Origin: Streptomyces sp. GS7
GTDB taxonomy: Bacteria > Actinomycetota > Actinomycetes > Streptomycetales > Streptomycetaceae
Length of the DNA: 64,000 bases
Assembly (NCBI RefSeq): GCF_009834125.1
Contig: NZ_CP047146.1
Span: forward strand, 9,003,184 to 9,067,183
Direction: 5' to 3'
Positions 14,695 to 29,054 of this stretch are shown here, in pieces; the stretch's first letter is position 1; every line of letters begins with the position of its first letter. Under the pieces are notes generated by a model. It did not search any database. It was not told the origin of the DNA and was given only the letters and a program-made list of their open reading frames with translations. A program made the position numbers and the translations under genes.

Positions 14695-16224
14695 TCAGAG
14701 CCCTCGCCAGCCCTCCGGGTCCACCCCACCCGGAACCGGTTCCGCAGGCGCGTACGGACCTCGGGTGAAGACGAAGGTCCCCAGATCGAGATGGCTGACC
14801 GAACCGTCCTCCGCGCGCACCACCCGCAGCGTCTCGCCCGCGTAGTAGCCATCCAGGCCAGTCCAGGTTCCGTCCGGCTCCGGCCGGAAGCGCGACGTGC
14901 GCCCGGCCCCGGACAGCGTCACCAGCTCCAGTCCGCGCCCTTCCCTCAGCCGCAGGGCGAACGGGTTCGCGCCCCAGTACCAGGGGCCGGTCACCGCCAG
15001 CAGCTCCTCGTCCACCGGGCCGGACAGCGGGCGCCATGGCTCCGGGATCCGCGGCTCGTGCTCCGCCGTGATCTCCATAAGGTCGGCCGCTACCGCACTG
15101 ATCGCGACCCCCGAGGTGCAGTTCGCCAGGACGATCCCCGCCACGTCCTCCTCGGGGTCGATCCACAGCGCCGCCAGGAACCCCGGCATCGACCCGGTGT
15201 GCCCGGCCAGTCGGCGTCCGCCTCCCGTCGGCTGCCCGCTCACCCGCACCAGTTGCAGCCCCAGACCGTAGCCCGCCTCCCAGCCCGCCCCCTCCGGCGG
15301 CACCGCCGGGATCCGCATCTCGGCGACACCGGACTCACTCAGCACCCGGTCGTCGCCCCGCAGCAGGAAGGCCGCCCATCGGCACAGATCCTCCATGGTG
15401 GACCACAACTGCCCTGCCGGCCCCATCAGTCCCGTCTCCTCCGCGGGCTCCGGCAGCATCACATCGGCCCACGGATGCACCGCCCAGCCGCCCGCATGCG
15501 GCGTCTCCGGCCGTAGCGTCGTACGGGCCATGCCCAGCGGCTCCAGCACCTCGCGCCGTAGCACCTCGCCCCATGACCGCCCGTCCCGCAGCTGCTCGAC
15601 AAGCGCGCCGAGCAGCGCATAGCCGAGGTTGGAGTAGTGGTGCCGCCGCCCGGCGACCAGCCGCTGCGGTCGTTCACCGAAGAGATCGGCCCGTTCGGGC
15701 CGCAGCTCCCCCGAGGTCCGCTCCCACCACGGGCCACGCGCCTCCGCCGCCAACCCCGAGCTGTGCGCGAGCAGTTGGGCGATCGTCACCTCCGGCACGG
15801 GGACGTCCGACAAGTACGTACCGATCGGGTCCTCCAGTCGGAGCAGGCCCTCGTCCCGTAGCCGGAGGACCATCACAGCCACAAAGGTCTTGGTCAGCGA
15901 ACCGATCCGGTACTGCACATCGCCGTGCGGCACCTCACCGTCCACCGAGCTCCGGGCCCCCACCCATACCGCTCGCCCGCCCCGCACTACCGCGCCCATC
16001 ATCGACGGCGCCCGCCCCTCGGCCTGCGCCACCGCCAGCCTGCGCACCAACGCCCGTCGGGTCTGCGGCATCAACTCCCCATACGCATCGGCCGAATCGA
16101 CGGACAGCGCCGCACGCGGCACCGCCTCCCGCACCCCGTCCTCACCCGCCTCGGGCTCCTTGGGCTCCTTGGGCTCCTTGGGCTCCTTGGGCTCCTTGGG
16201 CTCCGCGGACTCCACGACGGTCAT
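14695..16224 (-). CDS. Serine hydrolase, beta-lactamase / PBP4*-like, with EPK repeats
   Basis: A 509-residue protein of the AmpC/class C-like serine hydrolase group. The catalytic motifs are all present: S109-L-T-K112, Y197-S-N199 and H342-T-G. About 110 residues follow the last motif, forming a C-terminal lipocalin-like extension often seen in these esterase/peptidase homologues. The N-terminus holds five EPK units and one EPE, encoded by a 9-nt tandem repeat. I use ATG 16224, which follows GAGGAG by 4 nt. No clear signal peptide is visible, so it may be cytoplasmic. The substrate is unknown. Confidence 0.85.
   Translation of the reverse strand: MTVVESAEPKEPKEPKEPKEPKEPEAGEDGVREAVPRAALSVDSADAYGELMPQTRRALVRRLAVAQAEGRAPSMMGAVVRGGRAVWVGARSSVDGEVPHGDVQYRIGSLTKTFVAVMVLRLRDEGLLRLEDPIGTYLSDVPVPEVTIAQLLAHSSGLAAEARGPWWERTSGELRPERADLFGERPQRLVAGRRHHYSNLGYALLGALVEQLRDGRSWGEVLRREVLEPLGMARTTLRPETPHAGGWAVHPWADVMLPEPAEETGLMGPAGQLWSTMEDLCRWAAFLLRGDDRVLSESGVAEMRIPAVPPEGAGWEAGYGLGLQLVRVSGQPTGGGRRLAGHTGSMPGFLAALWIDPEEDVAGIVLANCTSGVAISAVAADLMEITAEHEPRIPEPWRPLSGPVDEELLAVTGPWYWGANPFALRLREGRGLELVTLSGAGRTSRFRPEPDGTWTGLDGYYAGETLRVVRAEDGSVSHLDLGTFVFTRGPYAPAEPVPGGVDPEGWRGL
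16153..16204. repeat. 9-nt minisatellite inside the serine hydrolase gene
   Basis: Five full copies and one 7-nt partial copy of GGGCTCCTT (plus strand), which on the coding strand give the EPK repeats. The unit length keeps the frame, so copy-number change would only lengthen or shorten the protein. Confidence 0.9.
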
Positions 16225-16340
16225 GACGCTCCTCAACGAGACGATCCACCTGCCGAACCGGCTAGTCGGCCCTGTTCACCGGTGAGCCACTGCTCACCGC
16301 GCGGCCATCCTGCCCCGACCACCAGGCCCCGCGCCTCCGG

Positions 16341-16354
16341 GTTTCGCGTGAAAC
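16341..16354. promoter_or_regulatory. parS variant (one mismatch)
   Basis: GTTTCGCGTGAAAC, one base off the perfect palindrome, 62 bp from the next perfect copy. Confidence 0.6.
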
Positions 16355-16415
16355 GAAGGCCCAGCCACTGGCGCCTGTGTGTCACATGAAGCGCCACCTC
16401 AGCCGGCGCTCCCAT

Positions 16416-16429
16416 GTTTCACGTGAAAC
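16416..16429. promoter_or_regulatory. parS (ParB-binding site)
   Basis: Perfect GTTTCACGTGAAAC in the intergenic region upstream of the serine hydrolase gene. Confidence 0.95.
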
Positions 16430-16452
16430 CGCGGGTTGGCGGAACAGCCGCC

Positions 16453-16466
16453 GTTTCACGTGAAAC
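16453..16466. promoter_or_regulatory. parS (ParB-binding site)
   Basis: Perfect GTTTCACGTGAAAC, 37 bp from the previous copy. A much-degraded version encoding the same pattern lies at 16490-16503. Confidence 0.95.
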
Positions 16467-16516
16467 CGGAGCCTGATCACCACGTGACTGTGTCACGCGA
16501 GACAGTCGCCCCGGTC

Positions 16517-17212
16517 TCAACACCCCAGCGCGACCGCCCCGATCACCTCTCCAAGCGCGGTCTGTTCCTCCTCGGGGAGCCAGCGTGCCGCATGCACCAT
16601 GTGCAGCGCGCTCCGCAGTCGCACCCGGTCCTCGTCGGTCCCGAGATAGCCCAGGTACGCCGGGAGCGTCAGCCCCAGTGCCTTGAGATCGCCGCGCGCA
16701 CACCACCGTGAGAACAGCTCCCGGACCGGCTCCTCGACGCCGTCGTCGAGGCCCCACCGCCCTGCGGCCTCCCGGTCCCCGTCGGCTGCCGCCGCAGCCG
16801 ACGTCTCCCGCAAGCCGTCCGCGATCGCGAATCGGTTCCAGTCGCCGTACTCCCCCTGCGGCGCATCGGCCACCCGCTCCGCGGCACGGGCGAAATACGC
16901 ATGAGCCGAGGCCAGTTGACCGAGTTCTCGGTGCGCCTCCCCCATGTTCACGTACAGCGACGGGTAGAAGCCCCGCACCCGCTCGTCCCCCACCAGATCG
17001 GCGCGGTCCAGACACTCCTGGTTCCAGCGGAGCGTCTCCTCGGGCGAGTTCTGATGCCGCGCGAGATAGTGCGCCGCGATGCACGCCTCATAGTCGTCGC
17101 GGGCGCTGCCCCAGGCTCGCTGGAACAGTCCGAGCGCCGCCTCGGGACGCCCCTCCGCCTCGGCCTGCATACCCGCTACGCACAACCGCACCACCTGCAG
17201 CTCCGGATCCAT
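16517..17212 (-). CDS. Tetratricopeptide-like protein of unknown function
   Basis: A 231-residue, acidic, helix-rich protein. It has TPR-type spacing of small and aromatic residues in EGRPEAALGLFQRAWGSARDDYEACIAAHYLARH and VNMGEAHRELGQLASAHAYFARAAERV, so it is probably an alpha-solenoid adaptor. I choose ATG 17212, which follows AGGGGAGT closely; in-frame starts further up would run into the spacer. It begins 64 bp after the MerR-clamp gene on the same strand and is probably cotranscribed with it. No enzymatic motif is seen. Confidence 0.7.
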   Translation of the reverse strand: MDPELQVVRLCVAGMQAEAEGRPEAALGLFQRAWGSARDDYEACIAAHYLARHQNSPEETLRWNQECLDRADLVGDERVRGFYPSLYVNMGEAHRELGQLASAHAYFARAAERVADAPQGEYGDWNRFAIADGLRETSAAAAADGDREAAGRWGLDDGVEEPVRELFSRWCARGDLKALGLTLPAYLGYLGTDEDRVRLRSALHMVHAARWLPEEEQTALGEVIGAVALGC

Positions 17213-17275
17213 GCGCCCACTCCCCTCATCGCCCATCAGCCATCCCGCCCCGCCTGCCGCCGTTCCCACCGGCCA

Positions 17276-18454
17276 TCAGCCACGGGTACCTGCACGTACC
17301 GGCATCACCAACGTCGTGAAACTCCCCTGATCCGCGGAACGGACCACGACGGGCCGGTCCGCCGCAGCGATCTCCAGCAGCACATCGGGCCCCACTCCGG
17401 CCTCCAGGACCGGCACGAACATCGCCGAATCGAAGGCAATCCGCATCCCCGGCCCCGTGCGGACCACTCGCAGCCGCACGGGCTCCCGGTCGCCGCCCGC
17501 CACCTCCAGCACCTGTGCCCCCTCGGACTGCACGCCAACGTCGGTGTCCGCCGCGCCCATGCCGGATGTCAGCGACACCACTCCGCTCCGACCGGCCACC
17601 GCGTCCCGCAGCCCGGCCCGGTCCACGACGAGCCGGTGCCGTCCGGCCTCAAGTCCTGCCACCATCAGCCGGTAGTCCGGAAACTCCCCGGGATCCGCCA
17701 CCCCGTTCGTCCCGCAGCCATGGGCCCACTGCGCGATGTCCCCGCGCTCCCCGCCGCTCCGCATCCGGAGCGACACCGCAGCCCGCGTGTCCGCCCCGGG
17801 GCCGCACTCCATCTCGACGGCCACCTGACGCACGGCCCACTCGGCCAGCCTCTGTGCCGCCTCCGCGGTGATCAGTACCCGCCGCGCGCCCCCTTCGAAG
17901 ACCTCCGGCCGCAGCACCCGCACCGCCATCCGGTAGCGATCCGTGGCCACCAACCGCGCCTCACCATCGGCGAGTTCGAGCAGCAGGCAGCCCAGCACCG
18001 GGAACTGCTCCCGCGCTGCGCCGGCCGCCGCCGCGGGCACCACCTGCCGCACCGCACTGGCGAGTTCGGGACCGCCGACCCGGGCCCGCACCCGGTCACC
18101 GCGATCCACCGGCTCCCCGGGCGCCTCCTGGAGGAACCTCTCGACCACCGCCCGCGCCTCGTCCGCCGCCCGCCGGGTGCGCTCCAGGTGAGCCCACAGT
18201 ACGCCCCGGGCCGCATCGTCGGGTCCGTCCAGCACGACCTCGACGTCCGTCAACGGCAGCCCCGCCGCACGCAGTTGCCGCAGCCGCACCGCCCGGGCGA
18301 TCTGCCCGCCGGCGTAGCGCCGGTACCCCGTCGCCGCATCCACTCGTGCCGGGCGCAGCACCCCGCAGTCGTCGTAGAACCGCAGCGCGCTCGGCGCCAG
18401 CCCCACCCGCCGGCCGAACGCGCCGATGCTCAACAGTTCCCCGGTGTCATCCAT
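17276..18454 (-). CDS. MerR-type DNA-binding domain fused to a DnaN-like sliding-clamp domain
   Basis: A 392-residue protein. Residues 7-75 are a MerR winged helix (LSIGAFGRRVGLAPSALRFYDDCG, then GYRRYAGGQIARAVRLRQLRAAG). From about residue 125 on, the sequence follows the DNA polymerase III beta clamp: LLLEL then RLVATDRYRMAVR, FPDYRLMV, a third-domain strand IAFDSAMFVPVLEA and the closing LVMPVRAG, which corresponds to the clamp C-terminus YLLMPVRL. It may use the clamp-like fold as a sensor domain or to contact replication proteins. A MerR-type promoter with 19-bp spacer lies directly upstream, suggesting autoregulation. Confidence 0.85.
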   Translation of the reverse strand: MDDTGELLSIGAFGRRVGLAPSALRFYDDCGVLRPARVDAATGYRRYAGGQIARAVRLRQLRAAGLPLTDVEVVLDGPDDAARGVLWAHLERTRRAADEARAVVERFLQEAPGEPVDRGDRVRARVGGPELASAVRQVVPAAAAGAAREQFPVLGCLLLELADGEARLVATDRYRMAVRVLRPEVFEGGARRVLITAEAAQRLAEWAVRQVAVEMECGPGADTRAAVSLRMRSGGERGDIAQWAHGCGTNGVADPGEFPDYRLMVAGLEAGRHRLVVDRAGLRDAVAGRSGVVSLTSGMGAADTDVGVQSEGAQVLEVAGGDREPVRLRVVRTGPGMRIAFDSAMFVPVLEAGVGPDVLLEIAAADRPVVVRSADQGSFTTLVMPVRAGTRG

Positions 18455-18461
18455 GACCGCG

Positions 18462-18492
18462 ATTGTCGAGCTTCAGGCAACATGAAGGTCAA
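18462..18492 (-). promoter_or_regulatory. MerR-type promoter and operator of the MerR-clamp gene
   Basis: On the minus strand, TTGACC (18492-18487) and GACAAT (18467-18462) are separated by exactly 19 bp. An inverted repeat GACCTTCA / TGAAGCTC (18468-18490, 7 of 8 positions paired) fills the spacer. The 19-bp spacing with a central dyad is the hallmark of MerR-regulated promoters. The start codon at 18454 is 7 nt past the -10, so the transcript would be leaderless. Confidence 0.7.
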
Positions 18493-18967
18493 ACCGCATG
18501 CCGCCCCGGCCCGGCGCCGGTCACAGCCACCCGGGACCCGCCTCGCCTCTCTCCTGTCCCGCAGGCCGGTAGCGGGCCGGCGTCCCCAGCGCGCCAGTGC
18601 GCTGCCCGAGGAACAACCGATATCAGGGGATCGTGCACCGCGGAGAGTCCGGGAGGAGACGTCCGCCGGTGGTCTCACCGGCCCCCACGGGTCACCGCTG
18701 GCGGCGGTCCGGATCCATCCTCCTGAAGCGGGCCGACGGCGGCCGTATTCGTCAACCTCCCTGTTCCGTGAGCACACGCATCCCGCGCGGTGTGACGGTA
18801 GCGGCGTGACGCCAACAACCCGCCACGGCGGGGGCAATGGGTTTTCCGTACGGAACGGACGCGGAAACAGCCAGAAGGGCAGAGCGCACGAGAGGAGACC
18901 CGAGAGGGCCTGTAGGATCTCGCGATTCGCGTCATAGAGCATCGCTATGACCTGCGGCTCTTGAAGC
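18493..18967. other. Intergenic region between the MerR-clamp promoter and the transposon end
   Basis: About 475 bp with no supportable gene; frames on both strands lack recognisable products. A 12-bp palindrome TTCCGTACGGAA lies at 18844-18855. The stretch may be partly remnant sequence from the transposon insertion. Confidence 0.4.
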
Positions 18968-18968
18968 T

Positions 18969-19012
18969 GTCTCACGTCATGTCATGGCGAGTTCGTCTCA
19001 GGAAACGTGTCA
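18969..19012 (+). repeat. Left-end transposase-site repeats
   Basis: Two direct copies of the same pattern: GTCTCA-CGTC-ATGTCA (18969-18984) and GTCTCA-GGAAAC-GTGTCA (18995-19012), 26 bp apart. Repeated short sites at the ends are where TnsB-type transposases bind. Confidence 0.55.
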
Positions 19013-19019
19013 TTTCCTC

Positions 19020-19050
19020 GGGTGCAGGCCGAGGTCTTTGGCCTGCACCC
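19020..19050. terminator. Hairpin terminator after the VanX-like gene
   Basis: An 11-bp perfect stem (19020-19030 with 19040-19050) with a 9-nt loop, just past the stop of the minus-strand peptidase gene. Confidence 0.6.
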
Positions 19051-19092
19051 AGGGCGACTACTTATGGTTCGGGGCCTTCGTGAGGTCTGCGG

Positions 19093-19749
19093 TCAGTCGA
19101 GTTCCCTGGGTCCGTAGTGGGCGACTGCCGCTCCTGTCTGCAAGGCCCAGTAGCGGTCTCCGTATGACCAGTGCCACCACTCTGTGGGGTAGTTGACCAG
19201 GCCAGCAGCGGTTAGCGCAGTACTCAGGATGTCCCGATAGGAGCGAGCCTCGTCGCTGATGTTGTCGGCCTGCGTGTAACAAGCGCCCGCGCTCTCCTCC
19301 GGGGAGGCGTTCATGCGAGTGCCCATGTCAAGCTCGCGCCCATCGTCGTCAGCGAGCGTCAGGTCGACAGCTGCCCCGGCGCTGTGCGGTGCAATCTCGG
19401 GCGGGGACACGTAGCGGCTGGCTGCTGACCGGACTTGCTCAGCAGCCCACTCCGGGTGCCCGGCTCGCAGTTGGGCTGCGTACTCGTCGAAGTAGTGACG
19501 TTGAAGGGACGGCGGGCGATACCCCTCGACGAACAGCAACCGCATCCCTTGAGGCAGCTGTGCCTGTGCTTTGAGGAGCCGATCGAGCACTCCTTCCCGC
19601 AGGTGTGCGAAGGCGCCAGCGGAGTCCTGCCACTTGCGCTCGTCGACCAGCAGGGGGCTGCCTCGTCGCACATCCACGAGCCGTTCACCGCACTCCTGGA
19701 CAGGCACGGCTGCGACCTTCGGGTCGGACATCAGAACGATCTCAGTCAT
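19093..19749 (-). CDS. D-Ala-D-Ala dipeptidase (VanX-like, peptidase M15D)
   Basis: A 218-residue zinc dipeptidase-like protein. The M15D signature is complete: His122 and Asp129 in PHSAGAAVDLTL, the catalytic Glu190 and third zinc ligand His193 in TEWWHWSYGD, and the FVEGYRPP strand with the transition-state Arg78. Family members cleave D-alanyl-D-alanine; VanX does so in glycopeptide resistance, others recycle it. No vanH or vanA ligase is beside it, so resistance cannot be claimed. It sits between the transposon's left end and tniQ, 8 bp after tniQ's stop, so it looks like cargo read from the same operon. ATG at 19749. Confidence 0.85.
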   Translation of the reverse strand: MTEIVLMSDPKVAAVPVQECGERLVDVRRGSPLLVDERKWQDSAGAFAHLREGVLDRLLKAQAQLPQGMRLLFVEGYRPPSLQRHYFDEYAAQLRAGHPEWAAEQVRSAASRYVSPPEIAPHSAGAAVDLTLADDDGRELDMGTRMNASPEESAGACYTQADNISDEARSYRDILSTALTAAGLVNYPTEWWHWSYGDRYWALQTGAAVAHYGPRELD

Positions 19750-19756
19750 GAAGCGA

Positions 19757-22423
19757 TCATCTCCTGGCCCTGCGCTTGCCTTCAGCCGGGATCTTCTGGG
19801 CGGCTGCGGCAACGCGTTTCCCGAATCGGGTCAGTTTCATGGCCGTGCCGCGTTCGGCTCGTCCGAAGAGGGGTTGTCCGAGGTCCGCTTCGAGGCGGTT
19901 GATCTGGATCACTAGGGTGGATTGGTGGATGCCGAGGTCTCGGGCTGCTTCGGTGAGGGTGGGATAGGACCGGGCTGCCAGGAACCGCGAAAGCCGCTGC
20001 CGTGCGAATGAACCGGTGAGGGCTTTGCGGAGGATGGCGGGGAGAGCGTCGGCTTCGTCGGCGGTGCGGAGGGCGGTGTGGTGGCTGGCTCCGCCGCGTG
20101 GCCGGAGGGGGATGTTGTGGGTGTGGGCCCAGCGGGCCATGTTCGCGGTGCTCATGCCGGTTTCGCGGGCGAGGTCAGGCAGAGTTCGGCGGCGGTGGAC
20201 GTACTGCTCGATGAGCCAGTGCCGTTCGATGGCGCCGCGACGCTTGTAGTCCTGCGGGCCGTCGCAGAGCGGGATGCCGTACTCATGGACGAGATCGGTC
20301 AGCACTCTGCGAGAAAAGCCCGTGAGGCTGGTGATCTGCTGGAGGGACCGGTGTTCGTCGAGGTAGAGCTGAGTGAAGCGCTCTGCCGGGACGGCTTGCC
20401 GGGCTTGCTGCCGGATGCGGCCAGTGGCTCTGGCGGTGTTCTTCGTCAGCGGGGATGCGGGGGCTGGGTGTTCGTCGAGGACATGCCGGATGGCCTCGAC
20501 GGTCGTGCCCAGGGCCTGGGCGGCGTGCTGAACGGGGTGCTTGCGTCCTCGGACGATCTGGTGCAGGCGGGGTAGGTCGACGTGCGCCGGGTCGGGTCCG
20601 GGAAGGGAGAGTCCGGCCAACAGGGCGGTGGGAGGTTGCCAGGTCACGGGCTCGTCGTGGATGTGGTGTGAAGCCAGGAAGTTGAGGGCTTCCTGCTGGA
20701 GGGCGTGTGCGAGTTCGGGGGTCTGAAGCGCGGTGAAGCACAAGGACGTCGCCCGGAACTCTGCGCTGTCGAGTCCGCCCAGATCGTCGGGGACGGACTC
20801 AGCGGGCAAGCCGCTGAGGCGCCGGGAGAGTTGGCTGCGGGCGATGCGTTCGCGTCGGCCTGTCCCCGGCGGTGTTCCGGTGCGGCGGCAGATCTCCAGC
20901 CAGCGGTCGCGGGGAAACAGGCCGGTGTAGTCCAGGAGTCGGCGCCGGCCGTAGTCGATGGGTGTGTCGTCGGCGTCGAGGTGGTCGGCGAGCCGGTCCA
21001 GGGCGGTAACGATGTCCGGCCATTGCGGAAGGTCGTCGAGTTCCTGGAGGAGGCGTGAGATCTCAATGCCGTCGACGACGTCGCCAACCAGCCCGGGGGC
21101 CTGGTCCAGGGAGGTGCGGCTGTCGGGGATCAGCAGCAGGGCGGCGAGGACGGGGGTCAGGGTCCGTGCATGGATTCCTTCGGGCGGTGTGAGCCGGACC
21201 GTCCAGGACGGCCAGAACATCGTGGGGATCTTCCTGGCTCTCTGCTCGATGTCCCGGGTGGTCCTTGCCGGTCGGCGGGGAGTCTCGGTCGTGGTGCGGT
21301 AGCGGAGGTGCTCGCTGGGGCGGAGGGAAGCGGCGAGGGCGGCCAGGTGCATGGACTGCAGCACTGGGCTGATGCCGCGGCCCCAGTCGTCGATGCTGGT
21401 CGCCGAGACCTGCCTTAGTTCCTCGCGTACTTCTTCCAGAAGACCGCGCAGGGCCTCACCGGCCGGATGGATTCCTGGCTGTTCCAAGATGCCCAGGGCC
21501 ATAGTGACCGCGACGGCGGCATCCGCGGCTCGGGGTGGGGCCATGAACCCCGGACGGTCCGCCGCCTGTTCGGTGTTCGGAGAGACCTGCTCGGTGGCGA
21601 GGTGCGCTTCTGCGATGTCGGCCGGTATCTGTTCCCGCAGGACGGCGGCGGGAAGGTCGCTCAGGACACGGATGCCCAGGGCCCGGATGTCGGCCAGCAC
21701 CGCCATTGCCGGCTGAGGATCGGCCCGGTAGGGACCGAAGGCAGCCGCTTCCATTTCGATGATCTCCATCACCCGGTCTTGCGCTGCGAGAACCGGATGG
21801 CCAAGAGGCAGGAGAAGCGTCGACGCGCGGGGCAGATCGGCGCCGCAGCCCGCCGAAACCGGACCGCCGGGGCGGATCGGCGGATTGCCGCAGAGTTCAG
21901 GTCGGGGGACAGACCGGCCGGAGCAGGGCCGCTGCCGTGGAACCCGCCCGCAGTGCGGGCAACGGTCCCCCAGCAGTCGGCGGTGCCGGGTGCAGGCGAA
22001 GGAAAAACCGAGCCTCCAGGACAATTGCCAGCGTCCACCGCTGGAGTGGAGGCAGTCGGGGCAGAACCGGGATCCCCGTCCGCGTCCCCATAGGACATGC
22101 CGTGACACGGCCCGGCCTCCGGGACTCAGCTGCAGGGCTCGTCCGTCATAGTGCGCCAGAGTCAGGGCAGTGATCGCCTCCGGGGCCGTGCCGGTGGCGT
22201 GCGCGACGGCAGCGGTCAACCGCTCGTCGAGGGTGATCGTCCAGTCCGTCGGGATGCCCCGGAACTGGTTTCCGGCGCGTTGCCGGACCGGGAAACCGAA
22301 GTGCAGCAGGACATCACCGAGCATGGTGTCCATCCGTCTGGCCATCGCTTCCAGCCAGGAGTCCAGGGCCTCGCCGGGCAGTGGCGGCATCCGGATCGGC
22401 AGGGTGCGGGCCGGCGCTCTCAT
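19757..22423 (-). CDS. tniQ: TniQ-family transposon target-site protein with C-terminal LysR-type winged helix
   Basis: An 888-residue protein, apparently intact. The N-terminal TniQ domain starts LPIRMPPLPGEALDSWLEAMARR and carries zinc-binding cysteines in FCPDCLHS, FACTRHRRLL and DRCPHCGRV (about residues 120-160). Middle regions hold repeated helix-turn-helix segments (TSLTGFSRRVLTDLVHEYGIP and ETGMSTANMARWAHTHNIP). The last 70 residues, LTEAARDLGIHQSTLVIQINRLEADLGQPLFGR, are a LysR-type winged helix. TniQ/TnsD proteins select the target DNA for Tn7-like elements. Its ATG overlaps the tniB stop (ATGA). Confidence 0.88.
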   Translation of the reverse strand: MRAPARTLPIRMPPLPGEALDSWLEAMARRMDTMLGDVLLHFGFPVRQRAGNQFRGIPTDWTITLDERLTAAVAHATGTAPEAITALTLAHYDGRALQLSPGGRAVSRHVLWGRGRGSRFCPDCLHSSGGRWQLSWRLGFSFACTRHRRLLGDRCPHCGRVPRQRPCSGRSVPRPELCGNPPIRPGGPVSAGCGADLPRASTLLLPLGHPVLAAQDRVMEIIEMEAAAFGPYRADPQPAMAVLADIRALGIRVLSDLPAAVLREQIPADIAEAHLATEQVSPNTEQAADRPGFMAPPRAADAAVAVTMALGILEQPGIHPAGEALRGLLEEVREELRQVSATSIDDWGRGISPVLQSMHLAALAASLRPSEHLRYRTTTETPRRPARTTRDIEQRARKIPTMFWPSWTVRLTPPEGIHARTLTPVLAALLLIPDSRTSLDQAPGLVGDVVDGIEISRLLQELDDLPQWPDIVTALDRLADHLDADDTPIDYGRRRLLDYTGLFPRDRWLEICRRTGTPPGTGRRERIARSQLSRRLSGLPAESVPDDLGGLDSAEFRATSLCFTALQTPELAHALQQEALNFLASHHIHDEPVTWQPPTALLAGLSLPGPDPAHVDLPRLHQIVRGRKHPVQHAAQALGTTVEAIRHVLDEHPAPASPLTKNTARATGRIRQQARQAVPAERFTQLYLDEHRSLQQITSLTGFSRRVLTDLVHEYGIPLCDGPQDYKRRGAIERHWLIEQYVHRRRTLPDLARETGMSTANMARWAHTHNIPLRPRGGASHHTALRTADEADALPAILRKALTGSFARQRLSRFLAARSYPTLTEAARDLGIHQSTLVIQINRLEADLGQPLFGRAERGTAMKLTRFGKRVAAAAQKIPAEGKRRARR

Positions 22424-23543
22424 GCGGCTCGTCGGCCCCGGGACCGCGGACGGCTGGTCAGCCGCTTCTTCTCCAGCGCGGCCTGAAGTTCGAGGCGGGC
22501 CGCCTCGGACGCCTCATCGTTCTTCACCCGGTCCATCAGCTCCTGGTCCAGCCGTTCAGCGCCGGTGCGGACCGCCCGCTGACAACCGCGGTTGATCAGC
22601 GTCATCAGCGAGCCGATGTGCCCGGTGCTGCGGGCGAAGAGGTAGTCCGACAGGTCGTCCGCGATCATTCCCGGGTGCTTGTCGGTGAGCACGACACGTT
22701 GTTCCAGGGCCAGCAGCATCTGCCGCCATTCCCGTCGCCCGGCCTCCGTATCAATGGTGAACGGGCGAAGCCCGAGGCGGGTGGTGCGGCGGCCGGTCTG
22801 GGCCAGAGCGGTGTCACGCCCGTTCGTTCCCTCGCCGAACAGGCCCTTCTCCGCGAGCTCGACCCCCACCAACAGCAACGTCACCGGGAACTCGTTGGCG
22901 ATCCACTTCAGGTGATTACTCACCTCGATGCCGCTCTTCTGTCCCCATTTCATTTCAGGAAGTGCAGATCGTCCAGAACAACCAGTTGGACATCGCAGGA
23001 CAACACGCAGTCCAGCACCCGCCGTCCGAACTGAGCAGTGGTGCCCCGCCCCTGTCCAGGGTGGCCGAAGAACTCCAGCATGGCCCGGTTGAGGTCCTTC
23101 ATCCCGGTGTTCCCGGTCAGCCCGACCCGGCAGACGGGAATCCGCTCGTGCCCCTGGCTCGTGAACGGACCCGACTCCGCGATCTGCCGCTGATGGAAGT
23201 CACGGGCGAAGGCCAGCACCGAGGTCGTCCTGCCCAGCCCCGGGAACGCGTCGACGGCCACCGCCCCCTTGGCCTTGTCACCGTCCTGCTCGTTGCTGTC
23301 GACGATGTCCCACAAGTCCTCGTGGAGCTCGGCCAGTTGCGGTGTCTTGACCGGGCCGATGTTCGCGTGCCACTTCCGGCGCTGCCGGTCGTAGTCCGCC
23401 CGTGCCTGCGTGGCCAGGGACTTCAGCTGCTTGTAGGTCAGCAGATCGGGCCGACTGCGGCGAGGGCTCTCAGCGAACGCCTTGAAGTCCTCCTTCCGCG
23501 ACAGGGCGAGATTGTCCGGCTCCGGAACACTGTCCTCGCTCAC
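22420..23543 (-). pseudogene. tniB: tniB (TnsC-like AAA ATPase) broken by a 5-bp duplication
   Basis: Two frames make up one protein. The first (GTG 23543 to TGA 22950, 197 codons) runs through Walker A and Walker B (VQLVVLDDLHFLK) and stops. The second (22953 to 22420, 177 codons) continues at once with KWGQKSGIEVSNHLKWIANEFPVTLLLVG. At the junction the coding strand reads CTGAAATGAAATGGGG; deleting one of the two TGAAA copies restores a continuous reading LHFLKWGQKSG. Walker A is also altered, FPGLGRTTS, with Arg where Lys is normal. The second frame has an ATG at the junction, so split translation is possible but the ATPase is probably dead. Confidence 0.82.
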
Positions 23544-25668
23544 ACGTCCTCCAGAGCATCGGCGTAGAAGTCGTTCTCCTCGGCGAGGTCATCGAGGTCG
23601 GCCTCGTCGTCATCCCCCGTCTCCGTCGCTGCCTCGGGCTCCTGCGGTTCTGCGGTCTGCTCGTCCTGGCCGAGGGCCTTGCGTACGGACGGAAGCGAGA
23701 CGACCGTCTCCGCCTCCTCCTCTGGGAGTTCGATAGCGGCCTGCTCGCGCGAGAGCCGCAGTGCCATGCGCCGCTCGGCGATCGTGGTGCCCAGTCCGAG
23801 GTTCCACCGCTGAAGGAGATCGGCGACGGCGAGCCGGTCATCGGGGAAGCGATACTTCGAGGCCGCCAGCTGCCGGGCGAACGTCAACGCGTCCTCGCTC
23901 AGTGGCATCTCGGCCGACGGTGCGTGCTCCCAGGTCAGGGTGTGCCATTCGCGGGTTGTGGGGTCGCGGAAGTAGATCTTGGTGATGTCGTCGGGGTCCA
24001 CTTGGAACGGCCAGCCGTTCTTGACGGGACTGTCGTAGGGGCTGCGGATGCCCGGCTCGGGCAGACCAGAACCGCTGTAGCGGCGCCGCCCGATCTCGAC
24101 CCCGTAGTGCTGGACCGTGCGCCACTGCGTCTGCAGGAACTCAAAGGCCAGGTCCCGGTCGCGGGGTGCTTCGATGTAGCCCGCCCGCGCCACGCCGTGC
24201 TCGAACATCTTCGCCGGGGACATTCGCAGACCCGGCAGGCCCGGATCGACCAGGCTGGCGTGCGGCCTGCAGTGATAGACCGTCGCGGTCCACTCCCGAA
24301 TGATCGCCTCAAGCTCGTCGAGGAAGAAGAACGCGTCGTCCTCCGGGCTCTCGCCCCGCGAGTGGATGTCGGGCCCCTTGTAGCCGGGCAGCACCTGCAG
24401 CAGCCCCTCCCGCAGGGTCCGGAAATAGCGCTCAACCGGCCCCTTGTCGCGGCCCGTCCGGAGCCGGGCCGGCTGGATGGAGATGCCCATCCGGCGGCAG
24501 ACGCTGGTCAGATGCTCCGAGACGTAGACCTTGCCGTGGTCGACCACCAGCGCCTCGGGGACCAGAGGAGGCGAGGCCAGCCCCGGTCCGCTGGCGCCCT
24601 CGACGTCGACCAGGACAGTGCGGGGGATGCCGTGCTCTGGCCAGACCGCGTTTCGCGGCCAGTCCCGCCCCGCCGGCCTCGGCCGGAACGACTGGAAGAG
24701 CACCGCGCTGACATCCACCGCCTTCGTCGAGACCGGCGTGAGCCGGATCCCCGTGATGCAGCGGGTGTACCAGTCCATCCCGACACTCAACTCGGCCTGC
24801 ACCCACTTGAGCGTCAGCGGGTCGAACGCGAAGACGTCCAGCCGGGTGGAGTCCATCAGCAGGTACTCACCCGGCCGCGTCGGCCGCAGCTTCCCGTACG
24901 GGCCCTCCGGCCGACCGGCGATATCCCGGTTGCGCTTCGTACTCAGGCGGAACAGCGGATGGCGTCGCTCCAACTCTCCAGCAGCCGAAACGCCGTCGCC
25001 CGACTCGGCTGCCGCACCACTCCCTCGCCGAACCGCGCGATCACCCGAGCCCGGGTCCGCTCGATCACCATCGTCCTCGACGGCCGCGACTGGTCGGCGT
25101 GCTCGACCATCACCTCCACCGCGGTCTCCACCCACCGCTCATCGACCGCGATCTGCGACTTCCGGGTCGATCCCTGGCTCGGCGCAAGCCCCGCTTCGCC
25201 CTGTTCCCGAAACGCGGTGACCCATCTCCTCACCGAACGCGAGGAGACCCCCAGCTCCGCAGCCTTCGCCGCGTATCTGGCTTCCAGCGATGTCGGCGGT
25301 GCGTACTCATCACGGGGGTCGCCTTCGCGCGCAAGTTCCGGACTCCCGGAGCGATACCCCGTCAGAAGTTCACGGACATGCTCAGCCCGTTCCAGAATCT
25401 CCCGTCTCTCCGCCTCGTCAAGCTGCCCCAGCACCACGGAGGCGATCTCGCCCTCGTCACCTGCCGACGGTCCCGGATCATCAGGATTGATGGCAGCCCG
25501 GTCGGAGAACAGCAACTCCTTGAGCGACAGCCGCAGGAGACGCCCTCGCCCGTCCTTCAAGACCACTTCGTTGCCCGCAGTGGTCGCGGCCATCTCCACC
25601 ACTTCGACGGTCTCCCCGTCGTAGTGGAAGGACGTACCGACTCCGACTCGGACTCCCGCCCTGCTCAT
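23540..25668 (-). pseudogene. tniA: tniA (TnsB/Mu-type DDE transposase) broken by a frameshift
   Basis: The N-terminal part (ATG 25668 to TGA 24943) carries helix-turn-helix domains (SSRSVRRWVTAFREQGEAGL) and ends RATAFRLLES before leaving frame. The remainder continues in the other frame from about 24975 with LERRHPLFRLSTKRNRDIAG and contains the integrase core: Asp in LLMDSTRLDVFAF, Asp in LVVDHGKVYVS and Glu in DKGPVERYFR. One missing base near 24975 would explain it (Glu-Ser-Leu-Glu-Arg-Arg in an intact copy). No slippery heptamer of programmed frameshifting is seen. The catalytic DDE residues themselves survive. Confidence 0.82.
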
Positions 25669-26384
25669 GCCGCCCGCCTCAACACGTGCGAAGGGCCGAG
25701 CGGTCGGTCAAGATCAGTGACGAAAGTCTGCGTCCAGAGCAAATGATGGACAGCGGAACGAACTTGGGGCTCCGAACGGCCCGGCAGGCAGCCCGCAACC
25801 TGCCCCAGGACGACCCCGTCGAGGTCCACCTCCCGGAGCTCCTCCAAGACTTCAGGGCTGAACAGCCAGTCCCTGCGGTAACCCGCCAGGAACCGGATGT
25901 TCTCCAGTTCCACGGCCGGAGGCTCGCTCCAGACCTCGTACTTCCATCCCCGCGACTCCACCGTCTGCCGGGTCCAGTCGAAGGTGAACTCCACCTCTGG
26001 CTTGGACAACCGGGGCAACGGCTTGACGTCGACAACCACCGGAACCTGCCCGGTGAGCAGGAGATAGTCCGGGATGTGACGGCGTACCTTCCCCTCCAGC
26101 ACCGTCTTCAGCAGGAGGGGCTGGGCCACGATGCCGCGTACGGACGGATCGAAGTCGGCGAAGTGTAAACAGGACAGTTCCAGGCGCGACTCGTAGATCA
26201 CGTGGTCGCGCGTCGTCGCCGACCAGTAGGTCCCCGAGTAGTGCTTCTGGCCCTTTTACCAACGGAACGTCCGCCACGGACAAGCCGACCGCAGAAGATC
26301 AACGGGTGCCGTACCCCAATCCCGATCTTCGACAACAGCGCCGCGTTGCCGCCGAACGCTCACCGTCGCGGCGATCTCCCCCAC
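25665..26384 (-). pseudogene. tnsA: tnsA-like endonuclease with an internal stop codon
   Basis: The frame reads from a likely GTG at 26384 to 25665 (240 codons) with one TAA at 26258-26256. Before it: DLLRSACPWRTFRW; after it: KGQKHYSGTYWSATTRDHVIYESRLEL, continuous with TnsA-type proteins, where a Tyr codon is expected at the stop. The nuclease motifs are intact: Glu in YESRLEL, Asp in HIPDYLLL and VDVKP with the catalytic Lys. TnsA cuts the 5' ends so that Tn7 leaves cleanly. A GTG at 26201 could restart translation of the nuclease core, but without the N-terminal region. Its stop overlaps the tniA start. Confidence 0.78.
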
Positions 26385-26501
26385 CGCACACCCCCAAGCC
26401 CACGAGCGATGCCCCGTGAGCACACAGTGTCAGCGAGCTTCCACCAGGGGCACCAGCATCAGAGCCCAACCACCCATACGAGTGAGCGGCTTGGCCTGCC
26501 A

Positions 26502-26577
26502 GTCTCAGATTCATGTCAGATATGCCATCGTTTGGCCATCGCTCGCGAGATTTGGCCACGAAATCTGAGACCCTACA
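26502..26577. repeat. Right-end transposase-site repeats
   Basis: One plus-strand copy GTCTCA-GATTC-ATGTCA (26502-26518) and one inverted copy with GTCTCAG (26571-26553, ending GTGGCCA). Together with the left pair they mark the element's ends; ACA at 26575-26577 would be the last three bases. Confidence 0.5.
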
Positions 26578-26585
26578 GCCTCACC

Positions 26586-29054
26586 TCACGTCTGCGCCAT
26601 ATCCACAAACCGCGAATAGTGCCCCTGGAAAGCGACCGTAATCGTCGCCGTAGGACCATTACGGTGCTTCGCGACAATCAGGTCGGCCTCGCCCGCACGC
26701 GGCGACTCCTTCTCGTACGCGTCCTCGCGGTGCAGCAGGATGACCATGTCCGCGTCCTGCTCGATCGAGCCGGACTCTCGCAGGTCGGAGACCATCGGCT
26801 TCTTGTCCGTACGCTGCTCGGGGCCACGGTTGAGCTGGGAGAGCGCGATAACCGGGAGTTCCAGTTCCTTGGCCAGCAGCTTGAGGTTTCGGGACATGTC
26901 CGAGACCTCCTGCTGACGGCTCTCGGCGCGCTTGGAGCCACCGGACTGCATCAGCTGCAGATAGTCGATGACGACCAGCTTCAGCTCGTTGCGCTGTTTC
27001 AACCGGCGGCATTTGGCGCGGATTTCCATCATCGAGAGGTTCGGCGAATCGTCGATATAGAGCGGCGCGGCCGAGACATCCGGCATCCGGCGCGCCAGCC
27101 GCGTCCAGTCCTCGTCCGTCATGCTGCCGGACCGCATGTGGTGCAGCGCCACCCGGGCCTCGGCGGACAGCAGACGCATCGCGATTTCGTTGCGCCCCAT
27201 TTCGAGCGAGAAGATCACGCTCGGCAGATTGCTCTTGATCGAGCAGGCTCGCGCGAAATCCAGCGCGAGCGTCGAGTTGTGCGTGGGGACCATCGACCGC
27301 GTGGCCAGATACAGGTGCTCGGGATTGTCCACCTGGACACAGCGGACCGGGACGCTCGCCAGTTCCCGGACGTCGGTGATGAAGCGCTGCGCCGACTCCG
27401 GGCCGTCGGGGCGCCGGCGCTCTTCGTGCAGGCGCCGCTTCCGCTCGATGCCGAAGACGTCGTCGGTCGTGGTGAAGGTGATCAGGTGGCCGGCGGAGGA
27501 TTCCCCGGAGCGCTCCGCGACCTGCTCGGCGCGCAGCGCGCAGCAGTGGCCGAGGCTCACCACCAGCTCGCGGAATCCTTCGGACAGCGCCGTGCCGGCG
27601 GCCGTGAACTGCACCGAGCCGGTCTCGGTGACCGTTCCGTGTGCGTCGAGAAGCCCGGCGAGGAGCTCCCTCCGCTGGGCAACGGAAGCCCGCAGATACT
27701 CCTGAGGGAGATGGCCGTTGCCCAGGAGACCCAGAGTGCGCAGCAACGGAAGCAGGTCATCGCCCGGGGTCCGGCAGCCCTCGGCCTCCAGGCGCCGCAC
27801 GATCTCCGGGTCGGCCGGGGCGAACTCCGAGGCGTCGTGCTGCCCGGCGCCCAGCCACGCACCGAGGACGTAGGGCGGAACCGGCAGATCACGGTGGGGG
27901 AGGTCGAGCGCGCCCGCGTTCCGCACGCTGTGGTGCGGACGCCGGCCGGCCGCGATGTCGTGCAGCGTCGCAGCGATCTCCTTGGTCGTCCGGACCGCGG
28001 CGGGGGCCCGCCCGTCGCCGGAACCGCTGTCACCGGCCACCGCACGGGAGTCGCGGGTGTGGGTGAGCCACTGGTGATCGGCGTCGGCGATCACGGAGGT
28101 GCCGTCGTCGAACGAGATCTCGTAGCAGGGGCGCCCCGTCATGACCTCGGTGGCGGCCACCACACGCGTGGGCTTCCCCGTCGCGTCGAGCAGATCGTCA
28201 CCGGGCTGGACCTCGCCCATGGTGGTCCACCCGCCAGGAGTGGGCAGCGGCGTGTCCAGCGCGAGGGCCTTACCCATCGCCGGACGAGCCGCGATCACGA
28301 TCATCTGGCCCGGATGCAGACCGTTCGTCAGCGCGTCCAGGTCGGTGAAGCCCGTCGGCACACCGGTCATCTGGCCCTGACGGGAGCCGATCGCCTCGAT
28401 CTCGTCGAGCGCGCCCTCCATGATGTCGCCGAGCGGGAGGTAGTCCTCGCTGGTCCGCTGCTCGGTGACGGCGTAGATCTCCGCCTGGGCGCTGTTGACG
28501 ATCTCGTCGACATCGCCGTCGGCCGCGTATCCCATCTGCGTGATCCGGGTGCCCGCCTCGACGAGGCGGCGCAGCACGGCCCGCTCATGGACGATCTCGG
28601 CGTAGTACTCGGCGTTGGCGGCCGTCGGGACGGACTGGACGAGGGTGTGCAGATACGAGGCGCCGCCGACGCGCCCGATCTCGCCGCGCTTGGTCAGCTC
28701 CGCCGCGATGGTGATCGGGTCGGCCGGCTCGCCCTTGGCGTACAGGTCGAGGATCGCCTGGAAGACCAGTTCATGAGCGGGGCGGTAGAAGTCCTCGCCC
28801 TTCAGGACCTCGACGACATCCGCGATGGCGTCCTTGGAGAGCAGCATGCCACCGAGCACGGACTGCTCGGCGTCCAGATCCTGCGGGGGGACGCGCTCGA
28901 AGCCGCCGGACCAGCCGCCTCCGTCATCGTCACGGTCCTGGCGCTCGCCTCGGCCGCGGCCCTTTCCGTCGCCCCGGCGGGAGCGGGCGGCCGGCAGCAG
29001 GTCACTGGGACCGGAGTCCGCCCAGGGATCGTCCATGGGCTCGGGAATGCTCAC
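26586..29054 (-). CDS. dnaB: Replicative DNA helicase DnaB, precursor containing an intein
   Basis: An 822-residue precursor; the mature helicase would be 491 residues. It unwinds DNA ahead of the replisome as a hexamer. The N-terminal domain begins PPQDLDAEQSVLGGMLLSKD (about residue 56). The RecA-like domain is interrupted inside Walker A: ARPAMGK (residues 256-262), then the intein (263-593), then STLALDFARAC. After splicing, GKST is restored. Walker B region LVVIDYLQLM and the SQLNRGPEQR motif (H4-type) are intact. The first 50 residues are polar and Gly/Arg-rich. Start ATG 29054. Four DnaA-box-like sites lie upstream, and the Tn7-like element ends 8 bp past the stop. Confidence 0.96.
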   Translation of the reverse strand: MSIPEPMDDPWADSGPSDLLPAARSRRGDGKGRGRGERQDRDDDGGGWSGGFERVPPQDLDAEQSVLGGMLLSKDAIADVVEVLKGEDFYRPAHELVFQAILDLYAKGEPADPITIAAELTKRGEIGRVGGASYLHTLVQSVPTAANAEYYAEIVHERAVLRRLVEAGTRITQMGYAADGDVDEIVNSAQAEIYAVTEQRTSEDYLPLGDIMEGALDEIEAIGSRQGQMTGVPTGFTDLDALTNGLHPGQMIVIAARPAMGKALALDTPLPTPGGWTTMGEVQPGDDLLDATGKPTRVVAATEVMTGRPCYEISFDDGTSVIADADHQWLTHTRDSRAVAGDSGSGDGRAPAAVRTTKEIAATLHDIAAGRRPHHSVRNAGALDLPHRDLPVPPYVLGAWLGAGQHDASEFAPADPEIVRRLEAEGCRTPGDDLLPLLRTLGLLGNGHLPQEYLRASVAQRRELLAGLLDAHGTVTETGSVQFTAAGTALSEGFRELVVSLGHCCALRAEQVAERSGESSAGHLITFTTTDDVFGIERKRRLHEERRRPDGPESAQRFITDVRELASVPVRCVQVDNPEHLYLATRSMVPTHNSTLALDFARACSIKSNLPSVIFSLEMGRNEIAMRLLSAEARVALHHMRSGSMTDEDWTRLARRMPDVSAAPLYIDDSPNLSMMEIRAKCRRLKQRNELKLVVIDYLQLMQSGGSKRAESRQQEVSDMSRNLKLLAKELELPVIALSQLNRGPEQRTDKKPMVSDLRESGSIEQDADMVILLHREDAYEKESPRAGEADLIVAKHRNGPTATITVAFQGHYSRFVDMAQT
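27276..28268 (-). other. DnaB intein, class 3 type, with degenerate LAGLIDADG endonuclease
   Basis: 331 residues inserted after Lys262 of Walker A. The first residue is Ala (ALALDTPLPTPGGW) in place of the usual Cys or Ser, and the end is PTHN followed by Ser594. The features of class 3 inteins are present: Trp329 in block B (DADHQW), Cys572 in block F (VRCVQVD) and Thr591 in block G. In that class the block F Cys makes the first branched intermediate. The endonuclease part has LAGLIDADG-like motifs VLGAWLGAG (396-404) and LLAGLLDAHG (464-473); the first has Ala403 where an acidic residue is expected, so cutting activity is probably lost. Confidence 0.85.

Follow-up and report, generated by a model that had tools for sequence, protein, structure and literature searches.

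A decayed Tn7-like element behind dnaB in Streptomyces sp. GS7, and the dnaB 3′ end as the probable attachment site of its lineage

The element and its genes

We analyzed a 64-kb stretch of DNA from Streptomyces sp. GS7 (hereafter, the window), which forms the end of a single-contig genome of 9.07 Mb beginning at dnaA. On the minus strand, dnaB is followed by tnsA, tniA (tnsB), tniB (tnsC) and tniQ, and then by a gene for an M15-type peptidase, all lying within an element of 7667 bp (18911-26577) whose right terminus is close to the dnaB stop codon. An earlier note, made from the sequence alone, had described a decayed Tn7-like transposon here and raised the possibility that its lineage uses the 3′ end of dnaB as an attachment site. 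Comparison with related elements supports that idea: the window element very probably belongs, in decayed form, to an actinobacterial Tn7-like lineage that uses the dnaB 3′ end as its main attachment site. The features of the locus, read from dnaB, are as follows (inner boundaries of the two ends are approximate).

26586..29054, minus strand: dnaB, replicative helicase, with an intein-like insertion at about residues 267-593 (Pfam DnaB and DnaB_C; most relatives align without 267-593)
26596..26621, minus strand: proposed attachment motif, dnaB codons HYSRFVDMA, with its ATG codon at 26598-26600, 23 bp from the element end (dnaB-plus-end pattern)
26578..26585: 8 bp separating the element from the dnaB stop codon (sequence)
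26470..26577, minus strand: right (tnsA-side) transposon end, TGTAGGGTCTCAGATTT... reading down from 26577 (junction comparison)
25665..26255, minus strand: tnsA, TnsA-like endonuclease, the portion open behind an in-frame stop, with the original start further up (open reading frames, Pfam, comparison with relatives)
23540..25668, minus strand: tniA, TnsB-like transposase, broken (open reading frames, comparison with relatives)
22420..23543, minus strand: tniB, TnsC-like AAA+ ATPase, broken (open reading frames, Pfam, comparison with relatives)
19757..22423, minus strand: tniQ, open, 888 residues, with a TniQ core, a long helical C-terminal part and a LysR-type helix-turn-helix tail; proposed dnaB reader (Pfam PF06527 and PF00126, AlphaFold model, structure comparison)
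19093..19812, minus strand: M15-type peptidase (D-Ala-D-Ala dipeptidase family), cargo (Pfam PF01427, E 2e-19; NCBIfam matches under cut-off)
18911..19060, plus strand: left transposon end, terminus TGTAGGATCTCGCG... (same end type in L008, L020 and L026)
18906..18910: 5-bp left flank GGGCC, mismatched to the right flank (sequence)

The gene order and the 4-bp overlaps described in the earlier note are borne out by Pfam matches and by the coordinates of the open reading frames (ORFs), which overlap at 25665-25668, 23540-23543, 22950-22953 and 22420-22423. Its statement that three of the four genes are disabled also holds. Compared with relatives, tnsA carries an in-frame stop, its open frame beginning only near 26255; tniA has lost 1 bp near 24977 and tniB has gained 5 bp near 22957. 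Only tniQ is open. All four genes have long open frames in relatives at loci L004, L005, L008, L009, L012 and L129; tnsA, tnsB, tnsC and tniQ/tnsD occur together in this lineage, broken in the window and open elsewhere. Among the window proteins, TniQ (PF06527, E 1e-19) and AAA_22 pass the Pfam cut-off, matches to TniB and to a TnsA-like N-terminal domain fall slightly short of theirs, and helix-turn-helix domains are found in the tniA fragment. The open genes of a plasmid relative, L026, are informative in this regard: its TnsB matches a solved TnsB (E 3e-16), and its TnsA matches the NCBIfam family NF033179 TnsA_like_Actin with 248 bits versus a cut-off of 110. A sequence search of the PDB with the same TnsA gave a single, irrelevant match, and one with TniQ matched the LysR-type tail only. 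The AlphaFold model of TniQ has a mean predicted local distance difference test score of 84, and the TniQ core is seen both by Pfam and by structure comparison.

Both ends of the element can be located in the window, and they are of the TGT...ACA kind. The right terminus is position 26577, leaving 8 bp to the dnaB stop codon, as the earlier note had it; the left end that it placed at 18968 is not upheld, the terminus matching those of relatives being at 18911. The dnaB-side junctions of 13 relatives share one terminus type, 5′-TGTRGGNTCTC or a near variant. This motif alone is not significantly enriched in the genome of the window (10 occurrences versus 8 for a reversed control). The window copy has GAGGC and GGCCC as its 5-bp flanks in the sense of dnaB; these differ, and hence no target duplication is visible.

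Elements at dnaB ends in related genomes

We searched for TniQ in one genome per species and obtained 18 loci. In 13 of these, including one from a Mycobacterium and one from an unclassified actinomycete, the dnaB 3′ end directly precedes the element; L016, L019 and L020 are remnants with internal losses. The other five cannot be scored, as four contigs start at or inside the element and the fifth locus, L017, is a tniQ remnant. The earlier note had named an outcome that would speak against its idea, namely close relatives scattered over many unrelated loci with dnaB never among their neighbors, and this is not what the 18 loci show.

Surveys of genomes indicate how often the site is used. Among 61 related genomes, that of the window included, dnaB is found in all and a TniQ match in 20. 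TniQ lies beside dnaB in nine of the latter (G000, G003, G009, G028, G030, G033, G040, G044, G049), beside a dnaB paralogue in one (G017) and elsewhere in six (G011, G019, G034, G041, G050, G051); in G050 and G051 the element sits inside another gene, with a 5-bp duplication. Matches in the remaining four (G012, G013, G022, G023) are weak, with a best E of 1e-18 or worse, and G033 and G040 have additional TniQ matches on other contigs. Of 30 dnaB loci fetched from related genomes, nine, including the window, have an element end 8-11 bp behind the stop codon, one has a mutated end and 20 have no recognizable end. A phylum-wide draw gave a TniQ match in only 5 of 149 genomes, indicating that the family is uncommon overall. 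A DNA pattern that combines the dnaB motif with an element end detects occupied sites in 41 of 392 genomes of the genus, versus 0.2-0.3 expected from base composition; the reversed-pattern control gave 0, although this control is weak, containing no dnaB sequence. The pattern behind the genus counts allows a single serine codon family and would miss sites with other codons. Class-wide, the pattern matched in 16 of 394 genomes, one of them falsely (L139 in G576, where TGTAG is the stop region of dnaB itself).

The distance between element and gene is tightly constrained. The earlier note had proposed tabulating distances to dnaB in relatives. With gaps of 5-40 bp allowed, 58 of 60 distinct sites have the element end 22-27 bp past the ATG codon of the RFVDM-type motif; some of the 60 were recognized only by the short end motif. 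In the genus, 41 of 42 distinct matches lie at 22-26 bp and one at 34 bp; class-wide, 15 of 17 places lie at 22-26 bp, one at 30 bp, and one is the false match. Both outliers, L107 (34 bp) and L145 (30 bp), were retained among the sites. At L145 (G592), dnaB is immediately followed by the TniQ gene, which gives this occupied site a different arrangement. At L136 (G786), which the pattern for the 60 sites did not take, the end is 25 bp from the ATG and 1 bp from the stop codon, and the inner sequence is unlike the others. Eleven sites in which the dnaB tail is of unusual length allow the two possible reference points to be separated. Ten of them keep 23-26 bp to the ATG, with the stop codon 5-14 bp away, and the spread of distances is smaller for the ATG than for the stop codon (1.95 versus 2.85 for all 11 sites; 1.1 versus 3.0 without the 30-bp site). 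Because the spacing to the ATG is mostly kept when the tail varies, the insertion rule is set by the coding motif rather than by the stop codon.

Orientation is equally constant. The nearest transposition gene behind dnaB is co-directional with dnaB in all 50 records, which represent 34 distinct sites after removal of repeats and of the unclear L124 (G131), where TniQ is ~3 kb from dnaB and no element end was found. Thus, these elements have a fixed attachment site and a fixed orientation beside a conserved gene, and both spacing and orientation hold across seven genus labels (g1, g3, g4, g5, g8, g179, g196); the hosts comprise Streptomyces as well as members of several other families.

Exact 5-bp duplications flank 6 of 10 dnaB-site elements examined (L007, L008, L012, L018, L129, L132) and are absent from the other four (L013, L016, L020, L133). 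They are also seen at copies away from dnaB, namely the plasmid copies L026 and L027, and L117. Inspection by eye showed nothing resembling the dnaB motif where L026 and L027 had inserted. Empty sites exist as well: at L035, L038, L047 and L056, a gene start is found within about 60-110 bp behind dnaB, and this gene start also trails the right flank of L008, L012, L016, L129 and L132. In the window, ~2.7 kb of extra DNA (16062-18910), with a MerR-like gene recognized by eye and another ORF, separates the left end from the gene that trails dnaB in several relatives.

In L005, L006 and L011, elements are stacked 4-5 bp apart. Seven short elements also occur at dnaB ends, among them L125 11273-11739, L005 5616-5847, and those of L041 and L087; three of the seven are 201-232 bp long, and exact 5-bp duplications are present in two (L041, L087). 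Stacking and short elements fit repeated insertion at one site, and the short elements may have been mobilized in trans.

Several further observations concern the contents of these loci. Copies of housekeeping genes occur as cargo, SecA in a Mycobacterium element (L018 18481-21012) and peptide deformylase in two others (L133 2296-2964; L005 12657-13475). At L002 (G000:C1:4506171), just a few bp past another ORF, there is a second terminus resembling the right end (94% over 31 bp), and by eye a transposase-like ORF follows within ~100 bp; this is perhaps a remnant of another insertion. The intein-like insertion in the window dnaB, ~326 residues, is missing from most relatives; the alignment spans it in L020, and partly in L021 and L143.

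Target recognition and alternative explanations

How might the dnaB end be recognized? TniQ most likely acts in the manner of Tn7 TnsD, by binding the 3′ coding end of dnaB, because the geometry equals that of Tn7 at glmS. TniQ, of about 790-890 residues in near relatives, would bind the conserved dnaB codons via its C-terminal part, and its core would recruit the TnsC-like TniB. This recruitment would direct cut-and-paste insertion of the TnsA/TnsB type to a point just behind the gene, leaving dnaB intact. The helix-turn-helix tail was also considered as the dnaB reader, as suggested by its absence from the plasmid copy L026, and was excluded, as both dnaB-site copies of L131 also lack it.

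Paralogues of dnaB provide a further view of targeting. Occupied paralogues are found in G023, G513, G296 and G017, with the end at 23-25 bp. The one in G023 lies on contig 3 (29 kb) and has a C-terminal part of 73% identity; identities for the others are 67% (G513), about 65% in both arms (G296) and 42% (G017). Since these paralogues lie in other places, it is sequence, not place, that is targeted.

An alternative is that insertion is more or less random, and that copies behind dnaB are those that survive, the intergenic spot being harmless. Two observations favor this view and weigh against site-specific targeting: relatives are also found at other sites, and the 5-bp sequence into which the elements insert varies from site to site. 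L017, in which the first 1.48 kb matches neither dnaB nor other elements, could count on the same side. Random insertion would not, however, be expected to yield the narrow spacing to a coding motif, the single orientation across distinct sites, or the occupation of dnaB paralogues elsewhere, and we consider it highly improbable. It is also conceivable that one old insertion behind dnaB was passed down vertically, with shared position reflecting descent. Some copies are indeed near-identical (for example, the TniQ proteins of L007 and L009). Against descent stand the differing 5-bp flanks, the fetched dnaB loci that have no recognizable end, the stacked elements, the presence of mini-elements and of unlike elements at the same position, and again the paralogues; such a history is scarcely believable. 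A last alternative limits chance to the window copy, which would have landed near dnaB without belonging to the site-specific family. Its missing target duplication and three broken genes might be taken that way, but this can hardly be so when its TniQ is 82-86% identical to the dnaB-site TniQs of L005, L007, L008, L009 and L011 and only 23 bp separate its end from the motif ATG.

Targeting of the dnaB coding end, as favored here, leads to a more tentative proposal. Many actinobacterial plasmids carry a dnaB gene with the same 3′ motif: RFVDM is kept in 12 of 14 plasmid dnaB loci, picked among the 60 listed of 1198 matching records. A single TniQ reading the dnaB 3′ coding end could then home to the chromosomal dnaB and also ride plasmids, with no need for a second selector of the TnsE kind. 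The occupied paralogues, including that on the 29-kb contig of G023, lend support to this proposal. On the other hand, none of the 14 sampled plasmid dnaB loci carries an element end, which argues against frequent riding by this route. On balance, we regard the proposal as doubtful.

Two other relatives deserve mention. In the plasmid element L027, TnsB and TnsC are 78% identical to the window at the DNA level and TniQ is far more distant (390 bits), a difference that may reflect exchange of the target selector. At L121 4963, a distant relative whose TniQ shows about 30% identity has its end 14 bp past a gene identified by eye as NlpC/P60-like; this is perhaps another attachment site.

Comparison with known Tn7-like systems

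If the dnaB 3′ end is accepted as an attachment site, the replicative helicase gene joins those named for Tn7-like elements in the literature covered, namely glmS, parE, comM and tRNA genes. No dnaB attachment site was found in a literature search whose coverage excluded supplements and most subscription papers, and a prior report is possible. For the actinobacterial group, these results offer a testable target rule, defined by a coding motif together with an orientation and a fixed distance. Should TniQ prove to be the reader, the dnaB end would offer a natural point of insertion that spares the gene, in Streptomyces and in related genera. This raises the question of why a mobile element should key on a replication helicase, the gene for which is also found on plasmids.

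Tn7 has TGT...ACA ends, and the dnaB-site elements resemble it in these as well as in their TnsA, TnsB, TnsC and TniQ-type proteins, 5-bp duplication and fixed orientation. In the coding end of glmS, the TnsD site is separated by about 25 bp from the point at which Tn7 is described as inserting (PMC2918618), with a 5-bp duplication and controlled orientation (PMC11406308); insertion at about this distance from a recognized 3′ coding end is likewise seen at dnaB. Unlike Tn7, these elements target dnaB, their sites being behind this gene and not downstream of glmS; they lie mostly 5-14 bp behind the stop codon, compared with about 20 bp for Tn7; and the window-type TniQ, of about 890 residues, has a LysR-type tail.

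Among the clades of Benler et al. 2021 (PMC8649781), an Actinobacteria-dominated TnsB clade is described as having no member characterized by experiment. The dnaB-site elements probably belong to this clade in a broad sense; in the part of that paper covered here, which did not include its supplements, we found no dnaB site. Tn7706 of Rhodococcus erythropolis is described as an element with tnsA, tnsB, tniB and tniQ on plasmids and genomic islands (PMC12915292). It thus resembles the window element in gene content and in its actinobacterial host, and differs, by that description, in its locations, with no link to dnaB found there. TnsA_like_Actin (NF033179) is a family name and says nothing about target. 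In contrast to CRISPR-associated transposons, the window element holds tns/tni genes and the M15 peptidase gene and no Cas effector genes, a statement that applies to the window element only. Finally, the Tn5053/Tn402 group lacks tnsA, whereas tnsA is present in the dnaB-site elements.

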